A stretch of 64,000 nt of DNA, taken from contig JAHBXW010000005.1 of NCBI GenBank assembly GCA_019636235.1, forward strand, positions 1-64,000. Reading direction: 5' to 3'. The stretch comes from Planctomyces sp. (GTDB taxonomy: Bacteria > Planctomycetota > Planctomycetia > Planctomycetales > Planctomycetaceae). The position numbers and the translations under genes are program-made. The notes under the pieces were generated by a model. That model was not told the DNA's origin, made no database searches, and was given only the letters and a program-made list of their open reading frames with translations. The stretch's first letter is position 1. Each line of letters opens with the position of its first letter. Positions 5,102 through 47,270 of this stretch are shown in pieces.

Positions 5102-5563
5102 TCAACCCCCCGCCGCAAAGCCCCGCCACCAGTCGGCCAGCCGCGGCAGAAATACCGCCGCCCCCACCGCCGCGGCCGTCAACGCCGACGCCAGCACGGC
5201 CCCCGCCGATACGTCCTTCGCCAGCCGCGCGTGCTCGCTGTACTCCGTCGACACATGGTCGACGTACGCCTCCAGGGCCGTGTTCAACAGCTCCACCGAA
5301 CACACCAGTCCGGCGCTCAACAGCACGCAGCACCATTCCAGCGAACCCAGACGCAGCCACAGGCCCGCGCCGATCACCCCCGCCAGAGCGGCCGCGTGCA
5401 CCCGCAGGTTCCGCTGCGTGCGGAGCCCATAACTCAGTCCGCGGAATGCATCGGCGAATGATCCGCTCAGCGATTTGCGAAACGGCGGGGCGGGCATGTC
5501 GGCGCTCGATGTTCGAAACCCGGGCAGGCCCCGGCGGCCGCGAGACGACGACGCTCGGTTCAT
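5102..5563 (-). CDS. dgkA: DgkA-family lipid kinase (diacylglycerol/undecaprenol kinase)
   Basis: An integral-membrane kinase with the diagnostic motifs: an RTQRNLRVH loop, ELLNTALE (Glu91, Asn94, Glu98 counted from the start used here) and AKDVSAGAVL (Lys116, Asp117). Three hydrophobic segments fit the small DgkA fold. It phosphorylates diacylglycerol or undecaprenol, recycling lipid carriers for the cell envelope. The start is uncertain: ATGs at 5563 and 5497 both fit (153 or 131 aa), and neither has a clear ribosome site. It lies 89 nt upstream of the YiiX-like gene on the same strand and divergent from the beta-lactamase-like gene. A second, degenerate DgkA-like gene lies at 46851-47270. 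Confidence 0.85.
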   Translation of the reverse strand: MNRASSSRGRRGLPGFRTSSADMPAPPFRKSLSGSFADAFRGLSYGLRTQRNLRVHAAALAGVIGAGLWLRLGSLEWCCVLLSAGLVCSVELLNTALEAYVDHVSTEYSEHARLAKDVSAGAVLASALTAAAVGAAVFLPRLADWWRGFAAGG

Positions 5564-5642: not shown

Positions 5643-7592
5643 ATGCGAACCATGCTGACGCCGCCGGCGCTCCTGCCGGTCCTCCTTGTCCTGCTGGTCG
5701 CCGGCACGGGCTTCGCCGACGAATCCGCGCCGCCCGCCGAACAGCCGGCCGTAGCGGCTCCGGCGAACGCCGCTTTCGTCTCCGGGTTGTCGCCCGCCGA
5801 CTTCCAGGCCGAGTTCGACCGCCTCGTCCGGGACGGCTTTCGCCCGATCGCCTGTCAGCTCGATGCGCCTGATCGGCACACGCCCCGAATGGGCGCCCTG
5901 TTCGTCAACGACAAGCGGCCTGGCGCCTGGCTGGCCCGCGGCGCCATCTCCGCCGACGACTTCCAGAAGACGCACGCCGAACAGCAGCAGCGCGGGGCTC
6001 GCCTGATCGGACTGGCCGCCTGCGAACTCGACAGCCGCCCCACTTTCAGCGGCATTTGGATTCGCGATGGCGGACTGCGCCGCACAGAGGTTCTGAAAGG
6101 GCTGTCCGCGCAGCAGCTTCGCGACCGCACGGCGGCCTTCGCGAAGGACGGCCTGCGGCCCGACATCGTCTGCGGATACCGGTCCGGAACCTCCCTCAAA
6201 TACGCGGCGTTGTTCGTCGATGCCGCCGGGCAGGAGTTTGACCTGCAGACCGATCTCGCCAGCGGGCCGGCGCAGACGTTGCTCGAAACGTCCGACGCGT
6301 CGCCGCTGCGGCCGCATTCGATCGTCGTCGACGACAGCCGCGGCGCGCCGAAGTTCTCCGTCCTGAGGATCGCCGACGGACGCGCCGGGACCGCCGCCAT
6401 CGGGCTGTCCGAAACGCAGCTCGAGGAACTGCGGGCCGAGCGCCTCGCCGCCGGCGACCGGATCCTGCAGCTCACGCCCTATCGCGAGGGAGCCGCCACG
6501 CGGCACGCGATCGTCTTCGAAACCCCGGCCGACCGCCTGCCGCAGACCGGCGACGACGTCCCCGCGCTCGCCGCCTTCGACGACGCCCTGCAGCAGCACC
6601 TCGCGGAAACCGGCATCCGCGGCGCGACGCTGGCCATCTCCCGCAACGGCCAGCTCCTGTTCTCCCGCGGCTACGGATACTGCGACGCTGAAGAACGCCA
6701 GCCCATGCCGGCCGACGCCCTGCTGCGGATCGCCAGCATCTCCAAGCCCATCACCAACATCGCCATCCGCCGACTGATCGACGAGGGACGCCTCGCCGAA
6801 GACACGCAGGTGTTCGACTTCCTGCAGCTTCAGAAGCCCGTACAGGGGGACTTCGATGAACGCTGGCGGGAGATCACCGTCGGGCATCTGCTGCAGCACA
6901 AAGGGGGTTGGGACCGGAACGAGAAGCAGCCCGAGTTCGAGAACGGCTTCGATCCGATGTTCCATCCGGGGCGGATCGCGCGGGCGTTGGGCAGACGGGC
7001 GCCGCTGTCCGCCCGCGATTTCGTCGATTACATGGTCACGCGTCCGCTGCAGTTCGCGCCGGGCGCGCGGAGTTCGTATTCCAATTTCGGCTACTGCGTC
7101 CTGGGTCGGGTGGTCGAGAAGGCGTCCGGGCAGTCGTATGGCGATTACGTGCGGGATGCGATCTGCCTGCCGCTGGGCGCGGAGGATGTGCGGCTCGGGC
7201 GGTCGATGGTCGCGGACCGCGATCCGCGCGAGCCGGTGTACTGCGACCCGGGGGAGACGCGATGCGTGTGCACGACGGGCCGGGAGACGGTGCGCTGGCC
7301 GGACGGCGGCTTCCTGCTGGAGGCGATGGACGCGCACGGCGGGTTCATCGCGTCAGGGCCGCACCTGCTGAAGGTGTTCGACGCGTATTGGATGGACGGT
7401 CGCCCGCGACGTCCGGGGACCCGCGCGCGGTGGACGCATTTCGGCTCGTTGCCGGGGACGTTCGGAGTGGTGACGCAGCGGCCGGACGGCATCAACATTT
7501 CGGTGCTGTTCAACCAACGGACGTCTCAGAACGACGAGCGGATTCTGGAGGTGGTGAACGCCACGGCGAATGGGATTGGGGAATGGCCGTGA
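5643..7592 (+). CDS. Exported class C beta-lactamase-like serine hydrolase with N-terminal tandem-repeat domain
   Basis: A 649-aa protein with a signal peptide (LLPVLLVLLVAGTGFADE). The first 320 residues hold four divergent copies of a repeat built around GLSPADFQAEFDRLVRDGFRP, the type found before serine hydrolases in the polyglycine-hydrolase/BTRD family. The hydrolase follows with S365-I-S-K368 (SxxK nucleophile and base) and Y479-S-N481. These enzymes act on D-amino acid peptides, esters or beta-lactams; the substrate here is unknown. The start at 5643 gives a good signal peptide, unlike the ATG at 5475. It is divergent from the DgkA gene and convergent with the next minus-strand gene. 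Probably periplasmic. Confidence 0.8.
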   Translation: MRTMLTPPALLPVLLVLLVAGTGFADESAPPAEQPAVAAPANAAFVSGLSPADFQAEFDRLVRDGFRPIACQLDAPDRHTPRMGALFVNDKRPGAWLARGAISADDFQKTHAEQQQRGARLIGLAACELDSRPTFSGIWIRDGGLRRTEVLKGLSAQQLRDRTAAFAKDGLRPDIVCGYRSGTSLKYAALFVDAAGQEFDLQTDLASGPAQTLLETSDASPLRPHSIVVDDSRGAPKFSVLRIADGRAGTAAIGLSETQLEELRAERLAAGDRILQLTPYREGAATRHAIVFETPADRLPQTGDDVPALAAFDDALQQHLAETGIRGATLAISRNGQLLFSRGYGYCDAEERQPMPADALLRIASISKPITNIAIRRLIDEGRLAEDTQVFDFLQLQKPVQGDFDERWREITVGHLLQHKGGWDRNEKQPEFENGFDPMFHPGRIARALGRRAPLSARDFVDYMVTRPLQFAPGARSSYSNFGYCVLGRVVEKASGQSYGDYVRDAICLPLGAEDVRLGRSMVADRDPREPVYCDPGETRCVCTTGRETVRWPDGGFLLEAMDAHGGFIASGPHLLKVFDAYWMDGRPRRPGTRARWTHFGSLPGTFGVVTQRPDGINISVLFNQRTSQNDERILEVVNATANGIGEWP

Positions 7593-7746
7593 TTTTGGCG
7601 CTTAAGCAGGGCGGGTCGACGCAGTTTCGCAGGCCGGGTCTTGACCGGCGAGCCGGTGCACTGGGCGGCTCGGCAGACGGGCATCGGCCGGAATTGAGAC
7701 GACCCGCGCCTGGCGCGAATCGATCGGGCTGAGGAAGCGGCGGCGT

Positions 7747-8010
7747 TCAATCGGGACGGTGGCGGCCGTCGTCGCCCGGGGGGCGGCCTCCGAACCACGC
7801 GCCGGCCAGCAGCCCGGCCAGTCCGCCCACGATGCCGCCAATGCCCATCCCGCGGACCCGCCGCGCCAGGCCGATGAACCCGTACAACTCCTGATCCTCC
7901 CAGGCCTCGACGGAAATCATCGAGCCCCCCAGCAGCGCCCCCAGGACGATCCCCAGCACAACGCCCAGGCATCCGCCGCCGACCATCGCCAGAACCGCCT
8001 GCCGTTTCAT
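7747..8010 (-). CDS. Small glycine-zipper membrane protein
   Basis: An 87-aa protein with two Gly-rich hydrophobic segments (VGGGCLGVVLGIVLGALLGG and GIGGIVGGLAGLLAGAWFGG), split by a charged loop (EAWEDQELYGFIGLARR) and closed by a polar tail. Such glycine zippers pack helices tightly and are common in envelope proteins of unknown role. I see no enzyme motif. The frame is supported by its clean membrane pattern; there is no clear ribosome site. It stands between convergent and same-strand neighbours without evident operon partners. Confidence 0.65.
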   Translation of the reverse strand: MKRQAVLAMVGGGCLGVVLGIVLGALLGGSMISVEAWEDQELYGFIGLARRVRGMGIGGIVGGLAGLLAGAWFGGRPPGDDGRHRPD

Positions 8011-8142
8011 CGTGGACCGCCGCTGAACAGGACCGCTGAACCGCAGCCCCGTCGCGGGGCATGAACTGAGTGTACCGTCGGACGGGGGGGATGCATGCGG
8101 CTGCGGAGGTCCGACGGGCGCCGCGCACAGGCTCGCCGGAGT

Positions 8143-9003
8143 TCAGCGCTGCACGGCTGCTGCTCGGAATCCAATGTGGTCGTAGCCCCGCTCGGGTTCG
8201 TATCTCAACCGCAGTGCCGACCGGCAGTACTTGCCTTCATCGTCCCACGCGCCGCCCCGCCGCACCCGCGAAACCGACCCGTCCCGATTCGTCGGCGTCG
8301 TGGCCCGGGCCTCGTACAAATCCGGATCGACGCCTCCCGGCAGCCGGGCGTGATACCAGTCCCGGCACCACTCGAACGTGTTGCCATGCATGTCGTGCAG
8401 CCCCCAGCCGTTGGCCGGATAGCTTCCGACCGGGACCGCCTTGCCGATCGACGGGCCCTCTTTCGCGCCGTTGTAGGGACTCTTCTCAAAGTTCGCCTGC
8501 CGGGGGCTGAGCCTGTCGCCAAAGGCCGTGGCCGTCGTCGACCCGGCCCGACACGCGTACTCCCACTGGGCTTCCGTCGGCAGTCGGAACTCCCAATCCG
8601 CGGGGAGGGTCCCGGCTTCCCGGCCGAGTTCCGTCAGTCGCGCGCAAAAGGCTTCGGCCGCGGCGAAGTTGACATTGCCCACGGGGAGGTCGTCCGCTTC
8701 CGGAAGTTCCGCGGTTGGTCCTGCGGGAAGGTCGCCGATGACACGCTTCCACTGGCCTTGCGTCGTCTCGTACTTCGCCATCCAGAAGCCCCGGGACAGC
8801 CGCACCTCGACTTGCGCCTCATCGGGGCGGCGGTCCGGCTCGGTCTCGGGGCTGCCCATCAGGAACGTGCCCGGCGGGCACCAGCACAGCCTGATTCCGG
8901 CCACTTCCGTTTCCGCTCCCGCGTGCGGGCCGCCAAATCGATCTTCCGCCGATGCGGACGCCCAGGACGCAACCAGCAGCCAGACCAACAGACGAACGGC
9001 CAT
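8143..9003 (-). CDS. Exported formylglycine-generating-enzyme (SUMF1) domain protein
   Basis: A 286-aa exported protein (signal MAVRLLVWLLVASWASASAE). It shows the SUMF1/FGE fold signatures: WCPPGTFLMGSP, FWMAKYETTQGQWKRV, RLPTEAQWEYACRAG, GLHDMHGNTFEWCRDWY and a closing HIGFR. In true formylglycine enzymes two cysteines sit after the RGGS/W motif; here the first position is Asp (RGGAWDDEGKYC) and only the second Cys remains. It is probably a structural or binding protein of this superfamily rather than a sulfatase activator, though the window does encode a Cys-type sulfatase at 36702. The start at 9003 begins the signal peptide; an in-frame ATG at 9057 adds a polar stretch. Confidence 0.8.
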   Translation of the reverse strand: MAVRLLVWLLVASWASASAEDRFGGPHAGAETEVAGIRLCWCPPGTFLMGSPETEPDRRPDEAQVEVRLSRGFWMAKYETTQGQWKRVIGDLPAGPTAELPEADDLPVGNVNFAAAEAFCARLTELGREAGTLPADWEFRLPTEAQWEYACRAGSTTATAFGDRLSPRQANFEKSPYNGAKEGPSIGKAVPVGSYPANGWGLHDMHGNTFEWCRDWYHARLPGGVDPDLYEARATTPTNRDGSVSRVRRGGAWDDEGKYCRSALRLRYEPERGYDHIGFRAAAVQR

Positions 9004-9197
9004 CGCCGACCCCCACTGGGCTTCACCCTGTCCGATGCGGATACTGTAGCCTTGCACGCCGATCCCGGGCGACGTTCCGTGCCGGCGAGGGCGCGGAGGG
9101 CGTCAGGAGGTTTCCGCGTCTGCAATGTCTCCGGCCCCATTGTCGCCAGCCCCTGACGGAGTTTCCAGAACCGGGGGATGCGCGATTGCTCAGCGAA

Positions 9198-9256
9198 TTG
9201 AAACATAGAGGCCCAGAGGAATTTCTTCGTGACCTCCGTGTCTCTGTGTTTTCCTG
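9198..9256. repeat. Possible dispersed GTCTCTGTGT-type intergenic repeat
   Basis: The stretch between two minus-strand genes holds an unusual low-complexity text: AACATAGAGGCCCAGAGG, then TTCTTCGTGACC and TCCGTGTCTCTGTGTTTTCC, i.e. runs of CACAGAGACACGGAGG on the other strand. I have seen similar text as an intergenic repeat in many unrelated bacterial genomes. It codes for nothing recognisable. Only one copy is in this window, so its repeat nature is inferred. Confidence 0.35.
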
Positions 9257-9323
9257 ATCCTCTTCACCTTGCTGTTGACCTACGGCCAACTGGGAGCCGG
9301 CTTCGGGAATCGCTGTGTGACAA

Positions 9324-9911
9324 TCACGCGCATTCGAAATCCGCCACGGACAAAAGTTGCGAGCACTTCGGGCACTGGCCCTGAAGAGTGAACCACGAGA
9401 ACAGATCCTGTTCGCGACCGGCAAACTCGGATGATTCCTCGTCGAACAAGTCCCCGGAGAACTCAAATCGCACGAACGCCTGCAGCGGCTGTCGCCCGCA
9501 TGTCGGGCATTCAAACACCATGCGGTCACCCTCCCCCCGCACGCTGGAACTGCCGGCGCCGATCTCGACGTCGTAGCCATGCAGATCGGAATCAAACAGC
9601 GGAGTGAGCTTTCCGCAGACCGCGCACTCCAGGTCCAGCGGACTGAGGATCACGGCCTGATCTCCATAATCGGGATTGATCCAGCAGTGGCAATGCACAA
9701 AGTGCCGTTGGCCGCCGCAGCGGCAGGCCAGGGCGAAGATGGGGTTGGTCAGCTCGGGGGCGTGAATCGTCACGCCTGGCGGCGGCTCGAAATCAAGCTG
9801 CGACAGCGAGACGTGGCCGTCGAAGGCAGCGCCGGGCAGCTCCGCCGGGACGGCTGTGAAGCCGGCGATGCACCGGGGCGGATGGGACCGGAAGTATTCA
9901 GCGTGATCCAT
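9324..9911 (-). CDS. Zinc-ribbon hypothetical protein
   Basis: A 195-aa cytoplasmic protein with paired cysteines typical of zinc ribbons: CRCGG and HCHC in the middle, CAVCG, then CPTCG near residue 135, and a last CPKC near the C-terminus. There is no signal peptide or membrane segment. The cysteine pairs probably bind two zinc ions and stabilise small beta-ribbons. I do not recognise a named family. The gene is single, with intergenic spaces on both sides. The start at 9911 is the first ATG and looks natural; no strong ribosome site is seen. Confidence 0.6.
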   Translation of the reverse strand: MDHAEYFRSHPPRCIAGFTAVPAELPGAAFDGHVSLSQLDFEPPPGVTIHAPELTNPIFALACRCGGQRHFVHCHCWINPDYGDQAVILSPLDLECAVCGKLTPLFDSDLHGYDVEIGAGSSSVRGEGDRMVFECPTCGRQPLQAFVRFEFSGDLFDEESSEFAGREQDLFSWFTLQGQCPKCSQLLSVADFECA

Positions 9912-9976
9912 CGGCGTCGCCCTCCGGTGAATTATCAGGATCCTACTGAGCTCAGGCGTTTCATTCGCGCAGCGTT

Positions 9977-9997
9977 CAGATTCGCGAAGCGAATCTG
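9977..9997. repeat. Perfect hairpin (9-bp stem, 3-nt loop)
   Basis: CAGATTCGC, GAA, GCGAATCTG form a perfect stem-loop about 110 nt after the stop of the downstream DUF1254 gene. No T-run follows on either strand, so a rho-independent terminator is unlikely. It may stabilise the 3' end of the mRNA or be a chance palindrome. Confidence 0.35.
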
Positions 9998-10103
9998 GGC
10001 GACAAGACGGCGATTGAACTTTCTTTCGCTGGTGTTCGGGGCTGGTGAGCCCAACTACGGCGATTTCTGGAATCCGAAAATCCGTCCCTGGAATGACTTC
10101 CGT

Positions 10104-11543
10104 CTACCCATTCCGGCTTGCCTGCGGCGTCACCCGATTCACCGCAGGCGGCGTCCATTTCCCTTCCGTGATCGCGGCCTCCGGCCAGTAGCAGCGGATG
10201 TAGAGCGAGAAGTCACCTTTCGGGGCTGGCAGCCAGTTCGACCGCTTCCCTTCGTCCGGTGGGTCGGCCTGCACGTAGAGCGTCAGCGACCCGTCTTCGT
10301 TCGCCTTAAGCCCCTTGTTCTTGGTGCCGAGCGAGTACCGCTTCAGGTCATTCGGGTGGAAGAAGTGGTGCTCGTTGTACAGCGTCAGCGACCAGAACCC
10401 CTTGACCGGCGGCAGTTGCCCCTTCGGAAAGGTCACGGTGTAGTTCTTCCCGCCGTTGAGTCGTTCTCCTTTAGCGTCGAGGTCCTGGTAGAAGTACTTC
10501 GTCTCGGTCTGAAGATTCACGAAGATGTTCGACTTGGCGACCGCGAGCCGAGTGTAATAGTCGGTGCCGAACCGCGCACCGTTGACTTGCGTCGTCCAGT
10601 TCCCGGCGAGGGGCAAGCCGTAGTGCTGGAACTGGAAGAGCGGCAGGACGATGTCCTTCTCCGCATCGACTGCGGCCTTCGTGAACGCTTCCTTGAGCTT
10701 TTCGTCCTTCTTGACCGCGTCCAGCACGGCCCGGAACTGGGCGTACATCGCTTCCTCGCCCGGCAGCGGCGGCACGTCGTCAAGAATCCCTGGCAGCACG
10801 TCCACAGTTTTCGCCGGCTCTACCCACTTCACTTCGGCGTCGCCCTTCGCGCCGGGGAACTCTGGGATCTTCGACCAGTCCGTCGTCTTCACCTTGCCGT
10901 CGAACTTTGACAGCGGGTAGGCGTTGATCTTGGACAGCACCTCCTGAACCGCCTTCTTGTCCTCCGGCTCGTCGCTCTGAAAGACCCGAGGGAATAGGGC
11001 GCCGTGCCTGGTGGGGCAGCGGAACGTCTCGGTGATTCCCTCCGGCACCTTCCCCTTCCAGTCCTTGCCCACCAACAGGTAGAAGCCGGGCTTGGTGCCG
11101 TACATCTTGCCGAGACCTGCGAAGCTGTCGGTCCGCTGATCGACGACCTGGTACACCCAGAACCGGTCGCCAAAATCCGGCACTTGAACCACAACGGCAT
11201 CCTGCGAGAAGTCTGTGATGCATTGGCCGTACACAACGTCCTGATTCGGGCAAGCGACGGCCCGCTCGGACGGCTCGATATAGTCGCGGAGCATGCTGAG
11301 GTGATTCGGCGGTGCGACCGGCAGTACGCCCCCAGCGAGGCCCGGTGCGGGCAGCTCTTCGTAGGCGACGAAGCGTGCGTTGATGTTCATCATCGGCCAC
11401 GCCCAAGCGTGCGCGGACTTTGCGACCTGACGGACGTAGCCCTCGTTGATCCGCGTGCCGGACACTGGACCTGGGATCTTGTCCTGACCTGGAAGCGCCG
11501 TCGAAACAAGTGCCACGAAGAGCACGGGAATAGCCCGTTTCAT
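10104..11543 (-). CDS. Exported DUF1254/DUF1214 protein
   Basis: A 479-aa protein with a short signal peptide (MKRAIPVLFVALVSTALPG). The N-terminal half matches DUF1254: a helical region around AWAWPMMNINARFVAYEELP, then CPNQDVVYGQCITDF and VVVQVPDFGDRFWVYQVVD. The C-terminal half is DUF1214-like, with FWSLTLYNEHHFFHPNDLKR and GSLTLYVQADPP. Members are widespread, exported and of unknown function; the DUF1214 part is an all-beta domain. It lies 24 nt downstream of a second member on the same strand, so the two form an operon. Codon use looks less GC-skewed than in the neighbours. Confidence 0.8.
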   Translation of the reverse strand: MKRAIPVLFVALVSTALPGQDKIPGPVSGTRINEGYVRQVAKSAHAWAWPMMNINARFVAYEELPAPGLAGGVLPVAPPNHLSMLRDYIEPSERAVACPNQDVVYGQCITDFSQDAVVVQVPDFGDRFWVYQVVDQRTDSFAGLGKMYGTKPGFYLLVGKDWKGKVPEGITETFRCPTRHGALFPRVFQSDEPEDKKAVQEVLSKINAYPLSKFDGKVKTTDWSKIPEFPGAKGDAEVKWVEPAKTVDVLPGILDDVPPLPGEEAMYAQFRAVLDAVKKDEKLKEAFTKAAVDAEKDIVLPLFQFQHYGLPLAGNWTTQVNGARFGTDYYTRLAVAKSNIFVNLQTETKYFYQDLDAKGERLNGGKNYTVTFPKGQLPPVKGFWSLTLYNEHHFFHPNDLKRYSLGTKNKGLKANEDGSLTLYVQADPPDEGKRSNWLPAPKGDFSLYIRCYWPEAAITEGKWTPPAVNRVTPQASRNG

Positions 11544-42559: not shown

Positions 42560-42630
42560 GCGGGGCCGGAGTTTCCGCATCGGCCCGGGCCTGGCGCCCG
42601 GGCCGCCTTTCGTCCCGCCGGGCCCGAGTC

Positions 42631-43659
42631 ATGTCCGAACATCAGCCCCCTCTTTCGCCGGATGACCTGCAACTGCTCGAGCAGGCCCGGGACGCCTGCG
42701 GCCGCATCCGCGCGGAAGTCGCCCAGGTGATCGTCGGCCAGGACGAAACGGTCCGCGCGATTCTCGCGGCCGTCCTCTGCCAGGGGCATACGCTGGTGAT
42801 CGGCGTGCCGGGGCTCGCCAAGACGCTGCTGGTGAAGACCATCGCCGCCGTGCTGGGCTGGAGCTTCAAGCGGGTCCAGTTCACGCCCGACATGATGCCG
42901 GCCGACGTGATCGGTATGGAATTGCTGCAGGACGACGCCGGTTCGGGGCGCCGCTCCATGCAGTTCACCCCGGGTCCCATCTTCGCGCAGATGGTGCTGG
43001 CCGACGAAATCAACCGCACGCCCCCCAAGACTCAGTCGGCGCTGCTCGAGGCCATGCAGGAATACCAGGTCACCAGCCTGGGACGCTCGCACGCGCTGCC
43101 CCGGCCGTTCCTGGTGTTCGCCACGCAGAACCCCATCGAACAGGAAGGCACTTACCCGCTCCCCGAGGCGCAGCTCGACCGATTCCTGTTCAGCCTGTGG
43201 ATGGATTACCCGGCCGAGGAGGAGGAAATCGAGATCGTGCTGGCGACGACCGAAGCCGCCCAGCCGACCGCCGGCGTCGTCTGCCCGCTGGAGGACATGC
43301 AGCGCTACCAGGAACTTGTCCGGCGGATTCCCGTCTCGCGGCACGTTGTGCGGTACGCCGTGAACCTCGCGCGGTCGACGCGGCCCAACACGATCGGCAT
43401 CCCCAAGTTCGTCGAGGACTTCGTGTCCTGGGGGGCCGGACCCCGAGCCAGCCAGCACATGATCCTGGGGGCCAAGGCGCTGGCCGTGCTGGAGGGCGCT
43501 CCGGCCGTTGCGGCGGAGCACATCCGGACGGTGGCGCCGCTGGTGCTGAGGCATCGCGTGCTGCCGAATTATGCGGCCGCCGGCAAGAACATCGATGCGC
43601 TGAAGATCATCCGCAAGCTGCTGGAAACGGTCCGCGAGCCGATGACCGAGACGGTCTGA
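42631..43659 (+). CDS. MoxR-type AAA+ ATPase
   Basis: A 342-aa AAA+ protein of the MoxR family. Walker A is GVPGLAKT (58-65), Walker B LADEIN (123-128), followed by RTPPKTQSALLEAMQE, with sensor 1 in FATQNPIEQEGTYPLPEAQ. MoxR ATPases act as chaperones for metal-enzyme or envelope complex assembly and usually sit before DUF58 and VWA genes. Here those partners are absent and the next gene is the LptD-like gene, 171 nt on. It may serve a locus elsewhere. The ATG at 42631 starts at the normal family position. Confidence 0.9.
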   Translation: MSEHQPPLSPDDLQLLEQARDACGRIRAEVAQVIVGQDETVRAILAAVLCQGHTLVIGVPGLAKTLLVKTIAAVLGWSFKRVQFTPDMMPADVIGMELLQDDAGSGRRSMQFTPGPIFAQMVLADEINRTPPKTQSALLEAMQEYQVTSLGRSHALPRPFLVFATQNPIEQEGTYPLPEAQLDRFLFSLWMDYPAEEEEIEIVLATTEAAQPTAGVVCPLEDMQRYQELVRRIPVSRHVVRYAVNLARSTRPNTIGIPKFVEDFVSWGAGPRASQHMILGAKALAVLEGAPAVAAEHIRTVAPLVLRHRVLPNYAAAGKNIDALKIIRKLLETVREPMTETV

Positions 43660-43830: not shown

Positions 43831-46800
43831 GTGCGTTTCCCCCGGTTTCGGCTGGTGACCGGCTGCCTCGTGGCGATGCTCTGCGCATGGGCATCCGGCG
43901 ACGAGTTGCGCAGTCCGCGCGCCCGAAACGGATCTTCCGGGGATGTCGCAACTCTCGACTCCTCAACAGCTTCCGCAGAACAGATCGAGATTTCGTCGCA
44001 GTACGCCCAGCACTGGACGTCCCCCGAAGGCACGACCGTGTACCTGCTGCGGGGCCGGTGCATAGTCCAGCAGGGGCGTCGCCAACTGAGCGCCGACCAG
44101 ATGGTCGTCTGGGGGGAACGCATCTCGGATGACGGCGGCGCCGGAGAGCTGGTGGTCTACCTCGAAGGGCAGGCGTTGCTGCAGGAACCAGGTCGGCGCG
44201 TCCAGGAGCCAACCCTGCTCCTCGAGCTGTCGACGTCCGCCGGATTCGTTCTGACGGCGCAATCGAAGGCCCTTTCCGGCGATCAGAATCCGGTCTACCG
44301 CCGCGCGGTCGAACGCCGGCGCAGCCTGGGCGGGTCCGGGGCGACGGCCCTGCTCGCCTCGCAGTCGGGACCGGTCCTGCCGATGCTGCCCGGTCCGCAG
44401 GCCCCGTCGCTGCTGCCTCGCCGGCACGTCACGATCAACTCGCGATACCTGAATCAGGACCTGGTCATCAACGCCGAGCCCTACAGCGGCACGACCCCGG
44501 CGGAGTACGTCATCACGATCACCAAGGGGGTCAACGTCGTCGTCGACAATGTCCCTCTGAACGTCGACGGCCAGTTGATGCTCACGCGCGTCGACCTCAC
44601 CGCCGACCGCGCCGTGATCTGGACCGACCAGAACATCGTCGACACCGGAGCCAGTTTTGATCTCGATGACAACACGCCTCTGCAGGTCTACCTGGAGGGC
44701 AACATCATCGCCCGCCAGGGCATGAACGAGGCTCGCGCCTCGCACGCCTTTTACGACCTGACCTCCCGCCGCGGCCTGCTGATGAACGCCGAGCTGCGGA
44801 CCTTCATCCCCGAACTCGACGGTCCGCTGCGCATCCGCGCCGACTCGATCCGCCAGCTCTCGGAGAACAACTTCCACGCCCGGAACGCGTTCGTCACGAC
44901 CAGCACGTTCGGGCGGCCGGGGTATCGGGTCGAGGCCAGCGACATCTTCGTCGAGGAGCGCTACGACCCGCGCTCGACGCGCATCGATCCCCGCACCGGC
45001 GTCGTCGACGCCACCGAGCCCTGGATCACCTCCCACAACAGCCGGTTCTACATCGAGGAAGTCCCGTTGCTCGCGCTGCCCTACATCAGCGGGCCGGCCC
45101 GGGAGATTCAGGTTCCGATCGAGCGCCTGGACGTGGGCTACAGCGGCATCTTCGGTCTGCAGGTCGAGTCGGTGTTCAACGTGGAGACGCTGTTCGGCCT
45201 CGACCTGCCGTCCGGCGTCGACGTCGGGCTGCAGGCGGACCTGTTCACGATGCGCGGCCCCGGCGTGGGGCTGCGATCCGACTACGACGCCTGGGGCGGC
45301 TTTCTGGGAATGCCCGTTCGCCACTCGGGACTGTCGCGGCTGTACTACATCCACGACAGCGGCAAGGACAATCTGGGGCTGGGACGGCGGAACCTCGAAC
45401 CGTCGACCGAGAACCGCGGCCGGGCGCTGCTGCGGCATCGCATGGACTTCTCCGAGCGCACCTGGGTCAACGCGGAACTCGGCTACCTGTCCGACCGGAA
45501 TTTCCTCGAGCAGTACGACGAAACGGGCTGGGATCGCGACAAGGATTACGAGAGCCTCGTCGCGCTGAACCACCTCAATGGCAACGTCTCGGTCAATGGC
45601 CTGGTTCGGGGCCGGTTGAACGACTTCTCCGACCAGACGGACTGGCTGCCCCGCGCCGACATCTCGGTGCTCGGCGAGCCGCTGCTGGGCACGCTCGCCA
45701 CCTGGACGTCGCGCTCGTCCGTGGGCTACGGCCGCATCCGCACCGCCGACGCCCCGTCCGACCCCGACGACGTCTTCCAGCCGCTCGACTTCCTGCAGGA
45801 GTCCAGCGGCCTGGTCGCAATGACGCGGCACCAGCTCGATGTGCCCTTCATGCTGGGGCCGATCAATGTGGTCCCCTATGTCCTCGGCGAAGCGGCCGCC
45901 TGGCAGGAGGACTACGACGGGTCGCAGCTCACGCGGTTGTACGGCAGCGCCGGCGTCCGCGCCAGCATCCAGTTCTTCAAGGCCTTCCCGAACCTGTACG
46001 ACCCCGTGCTGGGCCTGAACGGGCTGGCCCACAAGATGAAGTTCGACGTCGACTACTACATCGCCGAGGCGACGGAGAGCCTGGCCGGCGTCCCGCAGTA
46101 CAACGAGTTCGACGACGACGCCCAGGAGCGGTTCCGCGAGCGGTTCGTGCCCCTGGAGTTTGGCGGCGTCCTGCCGCCGCAGTTCGATCCGCGCTACTAC
46201 GCCGTCCGCTCCGGCGCCGGACGGGGCGTCACCGACCCCTATTTCGAGCTCGTCGACGACCAGCACGTCGTCCGTCTCGGCTGGCGAAACCGACTGCAGA
46301 CGAAAGTCGGTCGTCCCGACCGGCCCCGCATCCGCGACTGGATGACGCTGGACCTTGAAGCCAGCCTGTTCCCCAACGCGGATCGGGACAACTTCGGCGA
46401 GACGTTCGGACTCATGAACGGCCGCTACGCGTGGCATGTCGGCGAACGCACGTCGATCATCGCCAACGGCGTGTTCGACATTTTCGATGGCGGGCAGCGA
46501 GTGTGGAACGTCGGGCTGCTGTCCCAGCGCAGCGCGCGCGGCAGCGTGTATGTCGGCTTCCGGCAGGTCGAGATCGGGCCGATCGACAGCCAGCTCATCA
46601 CGGGCAGCTATTCCTACCGCATGAGCGACAAGTGGGTCTCGACGCTGGGCGCGGCGTACGACATTGCCGAAGGCCGCGACCGCGGTGAATCAATCACCAT
46701 CACGCGCATCGGCGAATCCATGCTGCTGCACATGGGGCTGGGCTTCGACGTCAGCCGCAACAACCTGGGCTTCGGAATTTCGGTGGAACCCCGGATCGGA

Positions 46801-46854
46801 CCGTTCGACTCCGCGTCCGGGCAACTCAGCTCCCTTCTCGGAATCTCGCGATGA
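43831..46854 (+). CDS. LptD/OstA-like outer-membrane assembly protein
   Basis: A 1007-aa exported protein with a GTG start and a signal peptide (FRLVTGCLVAMLCAWASG). The first 380 residues resemble the OstA/LptA-type beta-taco domain: TVYLLRGRCIVQQGRRQLSA, LVVYLEGQALLQE and VLTRVDLTADRAVIW-like strands. The remainder has features of the LptD barrel: EVPLLALPYIS (periplasmic-to-barrel hinge), LSRLYYIHDSGKDNLG, then alternating aromatic strands to the end. LptD inserts lipopolysaccharide into the outer membrane. It is about 200 residues longer than proteobacterial LptD. It overlaps the next gene by 4 nt. No lptE or lptB lies near it. Confidence 0.7.
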   Translation: MRFPRFRLVTGCLVAMLCAWASGDELRSPRARNGSSGDVATLDSSTASAEQIEISSQYAQHWTSPEGTTVYLLRGRCIVQQGRRQLSADQMVVWGERISDDGGAGELVVYLEGQALLQEPGRRVQEPTLLLELSTSAGFVLTAQSKALSGDQNPVYRRAVERRRSLGGSGATALLASQSGPVLPMLPGPQAPSLLPRRHVTINSRYLNQDLVINAEPYSGTTPAEYVITITKGVNVVVDNVPLNVDGQLMLTRVDLTADRAVIWTDQNIVDTGASFDLDDNTPLQVYLEGNIIARQGMNEARASHAFYDLTSRRGLLMNAELRTFIPELDGPLRIRADSIRQLSENNFHARNAFVTTSTFGRPGYRVEASDIFVEERYDPRSTRIDPRTGVVDATEPWITSHNSRFYIEEVPLLALPYISGPAREIQVPIERLDVGYSGIFGLQVESVFNVETLFGLDLPSGVDVGLQADLFTMRGPGVGLRSDYDAWGGFLGMPVRHSGLSRLYYIHDSGKDNLGLGRRNLEPSTENRGRALLRHRMDFSERTWVNAELGYLSDRNFLEQYDETGWDRDKDYESLVALNHLNGNVSVNGLVRGRLNDFSDQTDWLPRADISVLGEPLLGTLATWTSRSSVGYGRIRTADAPSDPDDVFQPLDFLQESSGLVAMTRHQLDVPFMLGPINVVPYVLGEAAAWQEDYDGSQLTRLYGSAGVRASIQFFKAFPNLYDPVLGLNGLAHKMKFDVDYYIAEATESLAGVPQYNEFDDDAQERFRERFVPLEFGGVLPPQFDPRYYAVRSGAGRGVTDPYFELVDDQHVVRLGWRNRLQTKVGRPDRPRIRDWMTLDLEASLFPNADRDNFGETFGLMNGRYAWHVGERTSIIANGVFDIFDGGQRVWNVGLLSQRSARGSVYVGFRQVEIGPIDSQLITGSYSYRMSDKWVSTLGAAYDIAEGRDRGESITITRIGESMLLHMGLGFDVSRNNLGFGISVEPRIGPFDSASGQLSSLLGISR

Positions 46855-47270
46855 GCGCACCTTCCCAGATCACCGGAACGGATGTCCTGCCCGCCGCCTC
46901 GATGCAGCGTCGGCCCGCCTGGCGGCGTCGGCTTGTCGAGCTCGAGCGGGGCGTGATGTGCGGCTTTCGCGCGAGCGGCGTCATCGCCGTGCATCTGTTC
47001 TGCGGAGTGATGGGCCTGGCCGCGGGCCTGGTGTTCGGACTGCCCCGGCTCGAATGGGCCATCCTGCTGGGCTGCTTCACCGTGTCGCTGGGATTCGAGT
47101 TGACGCACCATGCGTTCCGGTTGATCGCCCGATCGCTGTCGCTGCCTCAGACCACGAGCCGTCAGGTCGACAACCTGACTTCGGCCGCGGCGACGCTGGT
47201 GCTGTGCGGCGGCCTGAGCATCGCGCTGTGGCTGCTGGGCTCGCGCGGGCTGGAGCTGTGGCGGCACTGA
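46851..47270 (+). CDS. Degenerate DgkA-like membrane protein (pseudo-kinase)
   Basis: A 139-aa protein with three membrane segments that aligns with the DgkA family of this genome: FRASGVIAVHLFCGVMGLAA, RLEWAILLGCFTVSLGFEL and TSAAATLVLCGGLSIALWLL. The catalytic block ELLNTALE is replaced by E83-L-T-H-H-A-F-R90: the first Glu is kept, but Asn became His and the second Glu became Arg. The KD of the third block became D107-N108. It is therefore probably not an active lipid kinase. The ATG overlaps the LptD-like stop (ATGA), so the two are made together. It may be a lipid-binding partner of envelope assembly. Confidence 0.6.
   Translation: MSAPSQITGTDVLPAASMQRRPAWRRRLVELERGVMCGFRASGVIAVHLFCGVMGLAAGLVFGLPRLEWAILLGCFTVSLGFELTHHAFRLIARSLSLPQTTSRQVDNLTSAAATLVLCGGLSIALWLLGSRGLELWRH

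Follow-up and report, generated by a model that had tools for sequence, protein, structure and literature searches.

A DgkA-like protein encoded beside lptD in Planctomycetia and its possible role as a pseudo-kinase

In most of the sampled genomes of the class Planctomycetia, a gene for a small membrane protein related to the lipid kinase DgkA was found directly downstream of lptD, and the lysine by which E. coli DgkA holds ATP is missing from the linked copies. This linkage, together with the loss of the lysine, suggests that a lipid kinase became a helper in building the outer membrane. In the family represented by the window (the whole 64,000-nt stretch of DNA analyzed here), the protein is, as judged from its sequence, a selected pseudo-kinase and not a decaying gene, because its active site has been rewritten while dN/dS is low. 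It is tentatively proposed, at a little less than even confidence, that this DgkA-derived pseudo-kinase is a lipid-binding helper of LPS supply and outer-membrane assembly and is made together with LptD. The building of the planctomycete outer membrane is poorly known, and a conserved partner gene of lptD provides a direct experimental handle. Moreover, a series leading from a nearly intact to a fully rewritten site would trace, in an unusual manner, how a membrane lipid kinase became a non-enzyme.

The overlapping gene pair

The larger of the two open reading frames (ORFs) spans positions 43831..46854 of the plus strand, with GTG as the predicted start, and codes for an LptD-like outer-membrane LPS assembly protein of 1007 aa. 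Its stop codon and the start codon of the dgkA-like ORF (46851..47270, plus strand, 139 aa) share the sequence ATGA at 46851..46854 (plus strand), in agreement with the 4-nt overlap and the two reading frames given in a preliminary description of this DNA, and the same spacing of -4 was found in five relatives. The larger product had been described as a protein of the OstA/LptD type. The Pfam LptD models remained below their cut-offs for this ORF (15.6 and 10.4 bits); despite these scores, the assignment is borne out by the AlphaFold model (pLDDT 80.5), whose top Foldseek match is Klebsiella LptDE (E 1e-31, TM 0.69 on the target). The model exhibits the N-terminal LptA-like beta domain and the large C-terminal barrel of full-length LptDE, at a sequence identity to solved LptD of 10-13%. 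A profile of the relatives of the protein matches the solved LptD 8h1r at 8.7e-6 and has a single match in the window genome. Two matches to LptF/LptG are located on other contigs of this genome. LptE (PF04390) was not matched there, by a model that also missed several control genomes with LptF/LptG matches.

The small protein matches PF01219 (DAGK_prokar) with 28.1 bits against a cut-off of 22.3 (E 1.9e-6, profile positions 5-100 of 102). While a search of solved structures with the single sequence retrieved no DgkA, a profile of its relatives retrieved solved E. coli DgkA with an E-value of about 1e-11, so that the proposed alignment with DgkA stands. The AlphaFold model (pLDDT 89.1) contains helices at residues 23-41, 43-62, 66-95, and 102-138, a layout that corresponds to an amphipathic surface helix followed by three membrane helices. 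The expected helices are present in the model, but no DgkA structure stood out in the comparisons with solved folds, as Foldseek gave no significant match and VIA-align placed DgkA chains (Z 7.9 and 7.2) amid unrelated helical proteins. Besides the profile match, the protein shares its size, the arrangement of its helices, several conserved Gly and Trp residues, and Glu69 with DgkA/undecaprenol kinase (PF01219). In contrast to these enzymes, it carries an additional conserved N-terminal helix (WRxRL...ERG) and is genetically linked to lptD, and Lys94, Asp80, Glu76, and Asp95 are lost in the window's family.

Linkage to lptD within and outside Planctomycetia

Related loci were collected with an alignment of LptD. 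In a class sample of 108 Planctomycetia genomes, the LptD profile matched all 108 and PF01219 matched 103. A DgkA-like match was located directly downstream of lptD, on the same strand, in 83 of the 108 genomes, beginning 53-617 nt past the LptD match. This number puts the pairing far beyond chance, and the possibility of a chance neighborhood was rejected. The linkage spans at least eight families. Exceptions among the 108 genomes include one copy directly upstream of lptD and another at a distance of 5.6 kb on the other strand. The linked copy is the sole PF01219 protein in 73 genomes of the class sample; in the window's family, a linked and an unlinked copy occur together in 11 of 28 genomes.

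Several genomes of the window's family possess an ordinary DgkA alone or no DgkA, and the degenerate DgkA-like copy of genus g5 sits away from lptD. A second sample comprised 76 named loci with enough sequence and is skewed towards the window's family. Here, a dgkA-like gene was identified downstream of lptD in 31 loci by a strict rule and a matching frame overlapping the lptD end in seven more, while the lptD loci of Schlesneria and Fuerstiella showed no dgkA-like gene beside lptD. A universal occurrence of the pair in the window's family was no longer assumed in view of the family genomes and named loci that lack the linked gene. Given its absence from lineages such as Schlesneria and Fuerstiella, and its location elsewhere in one genus, the dgkA-like gene is not essential to LptD. 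Outside the class, PF01219 was found in 10 of 168 genomes of a phylum-wide sample, and in none of the seven with both places listed did it lie beside lptD; of the remaining three, one had no LptD match and the place of LptD was unlisted for two. The arrangement expected for Planctomycetota therefore holds widely within Planctomycetia, but it is absent or displaced in some lineages and was not seen in the sampled genomes outside this class.

Remodeling of the catalytic site

Active diacylglycerol kinase DgkA is a homotrimer with shared active sites. In the E. coli enzyme, Glu69 is proposed to act as the base and is connected to Glu76 through Asn72, metals are held by Glu28 and Glu76, and ATP is held by Lys94, which is tethered by its salt-bridge partner Asp80, while Asp95 holds the ribose (PMC4703834). 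Activity depends strictly on Glu69, Asn72, and Glu76 and critically on Lys94, mutants of Asp80 are inactive, and each of the substitutions Asn72Gln and Asn72Asp abolishes activity (PMC4703834).

When aligned with the E. coli enzyme and 135 relatives, the window protein has its former catalytic helix at residues E83-R94 (47097..47132, plus strand), with Glu69 kept as E83, Asn72 replaced by H86, Glu76 by R90, and Asp80 by R94. The site of Lys94-Asp95 falls on D107-N108-L109 (47169..47177, plus strand), in a register that is uncertain by one residue: D107-N108 occupy it in the MAFFT alignment and N108-L109 if no gap is introduced. Thus, the Asn and the second Glu of the ELLNTALE motif are indeed His and Arg, as previously noted, and the KD motif is gone in either register. 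Among the residues expected of an active kinase (Glu69, Asn72, Glu76, Lys94, and Asp95), the window protein retains Glu69 alone. The intact DgkA reported for the same genome is located within the window, unlinked to lptD, at 5102..5497 on the minus strand (PF01219, 107.4 bits), and keeps E69, N72, E76, D80, K94, and D95, with Gln in place of Glu28. The latter position was dropped as a diagnostic residue since it varies in ordinary planctomycete DgkA, 57% of which carry Gln.

In a tree of 107 sequences, the linked copies and a few moved ones group in one clade (100/99) that excludes ordinary DgkA, and this clade persists after removal of the active-site columns and of three long branches (98/91), in a tree of a short protein with many inner forks lacking support. 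Lys94 is present in 0 of 99 linked copies. Ordinary copies, for which Lys94 and Asp80 served to define the group, carry Glu69, Asn72, Glu76, Asp80, and Lys94 in 21 of 21 cases. The linked copies outside families f1 (the window's family) and f2 (n=36) retain Glu69 (36), Asn72 (35), Glu76 (35), and Asp95 (34); position 94 is Leu in 35 of the 36, and a basic residue (Arg, Lys, or His) occupies position 80 in 30. In most families, Lys94 and Asp80 are the only residues replaced, and the linked copy is often the sole DgkA-family protein of its genome. A dead enzyme cannot be assumed clade-wide for this reason, and a clade that is inactive as a whole was dropped as an explanation; the earlier label of a catalytically dead DgkA fits the loss of catalytic residues in the window's family, but not most other families.

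Family f2 has a common set of its own, consisting of His72, Asp76, Arg80, Arg94, and Glu95. At f2 loci (e.g., L059 and L097), the remodeled site is common to most of 27 genomes without another PF01219 protein. In the linked copies of f1, Lys or Arg occupies position 76 in 31 of 36 cases (never Glu) and position 95 in 22 of 36. This family also exhibits invariant residues that were not encountered in ordinary DgkA (e.g., Glu at position 18 and Arg at position 11), as well as a conserved amphipathic N-terminal helix, and Glu69 is mostly kept. His at position 34, on the lipid side of the site, is largely kept, as it is in ordinary planctomycete copies. The residues of the adenine-clamping loop are unconserved in the alignment of the linked clade. 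In genus g55 (e.g., L063 and L067), the linked copy has Gln at the position of Glu69, and the genomes are without ordinary DgkA. Since each state of the site is largely conserved within its group, the differences look like remodeling, not decay.

Proposed role and alternative explanations

Early in Planctomycetia, a DgkA copy settled directly downstream of lptD, and its ATP-holding pair of Lys94 and Asp80 disappeared, as the sequences show. The window's family went further, with the metal-binding Glu76 turned into Lys or Arg and Asp95 often becoming basic, while strong purifying selection maintained the membrane helices, the amphipathic N-terminal helix, and mostly Glu69. The resulting protein would phosphorylate nothing any more and would most likely be an inner-membrane protein, probably trimeric. 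Given that the lipid side of the site is largely kept and the metal side has become basic, the simplest reading is that a lipid headgroup may be bound in the absence of metal or ATP; the old lipid pocket and the new basic residues could thus accommodate an anionic lipid, for example lipid A or phosphatidic acid. Made together with LptD, it would assist or control the supply of LPS and the assembly of the outer membrane. Against such a role, a DgkA fold in the inner membrane and LptD in the outer membrane need not touch, and LptD does without the gene in some lineages. From these sequence patterns, our best guess is that the protein binds lipids in the service of LPS or outer-membrane assembly.

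The loss of catalytic residues and the absence of the gene from some lineages would also be compatible with a decaying, functionless duplicate. However, pairwise dN/dS of the dgkA-like gene in genus g55 (f1 type) is 0.02-0.13, compared to 0.04-0.08 for the lptD end, where the larger values are rough because dS is high; new invariant residues have appeared and the frames are open throughout. A decaying pseudogene is contradicted by the dN/dS values and was rejected as most improbable. A pair of lptD-unlinked copies in genus g5 likewise gave a dN/dS of 0.02, and this persistence under strong selection away from lptD, along with the lineages in which lptD persists alone, would suit a leftover operon, in which an ancestral dgkA came to lie behind lptD by happenstance and serves a different function at the membrane, independent of LPS. 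This explanation is improbable, as the linkage survived in at least eight families despite the shuffling of other neighbors, and as the G041 gene flanks lptD on the opposite side, which looks as though adjacency had been kept or regained.

A real, if doubtful, possibility is that the clade is a rewired, active lipid kinase in which a basic residue at position 80 replaces Lys94 and which recycles diacylglycerol or undecaprenol from LPS modification, with only the window's family being secondarily inactive or having adopted other chemistry. WNK protein kinases retain their function with a moved nucleotide-holding lysine; the likeness to these enzymes and to pseudokinases is one of shared logic, a lysine being lost or moved within a conserved fold, whereas fold and family are unrelated. 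Several of the above observations argue for activity, namely the four residues retained outside f1 and f2, the combination of a basic position 80 with Leu94, the f2-specific residue set, and the many genomes that have no PF01219 protein besides the linked copy. They are opposed by the basic position 76 of f1, the loss of the adenine-clamping residues in the clade, and the inactivity of E. coli DgkA upon mere Asn72Gln or Asn72Asp exchange. The pseudo-kinase reading might conversely be extended to the whole class as an LPS-export accessory derived from a lipid kinase, in which the lysine was replaced first and acids gave way to bases in at least one family, and which would bind LPS precursors or phosphatidic acid and couple lipid supply to the translocon. 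This extension is rather unlikely. Outside the window's family, a kinase that stays active through a relocated positive charge would be about as probable as lipid binding without metal or ATP.

By recycling lipid by-products, DgkA is known to aid the modification of lipid A, namely the transfer of phosphoethanolamine, and dgkA is a neighbor of mcr-3 (PMC10285318), which favors an active kinase and also makes an ancestral link between DgkA and LPS reasonable. The linked genes of Planctomycetia share with the dgkA genes beside the lipid A phosphoethanolamine transferases mcr-3, mcr-7, and mcr-8 that a DgkA-family gene is tied to LPS biology; those genes, however, are annotated as ordinary DgkA and adjoin a transferase instead of lptD (PMC10285318; PMC7559476). 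A 2012 study identified LptD in all planctomycetes sequenced at the time and mentions neither DgkA nor diacylglycerol (PMC3422733). In the open-licence literature, neither an earlier description of an lptD-linked DgkA relative nor a DgkA pseudo-enzyme was found, in line with the preliminary description; a mention elsewhere is possible.

The remaining genes around lptD are variable. MoxR is conserved in 1 of 29 linked relatives and DUF1501 in 0 of 29, the former being represented in the window by an AAA ATPase of the MoxR type that immediately precedes lptD (42619-43659). In locus L058 (G041), on the reverse complement, the dgkA-like gene (6811-7368), which forms a very long branch, precedes lptD (7619-10585). 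Ten of the 29 loci (L030, L055, L024, L026, L031, L033, L037, L038, L042, and L049) contain a large, homologous ORF upstream of lptD on the same strand. In L055, no Pfam model passes for this ORF, and in L030 it matches PMT_2 (membrane glycosyltransferase); it could code for an LPS sugar transferase.
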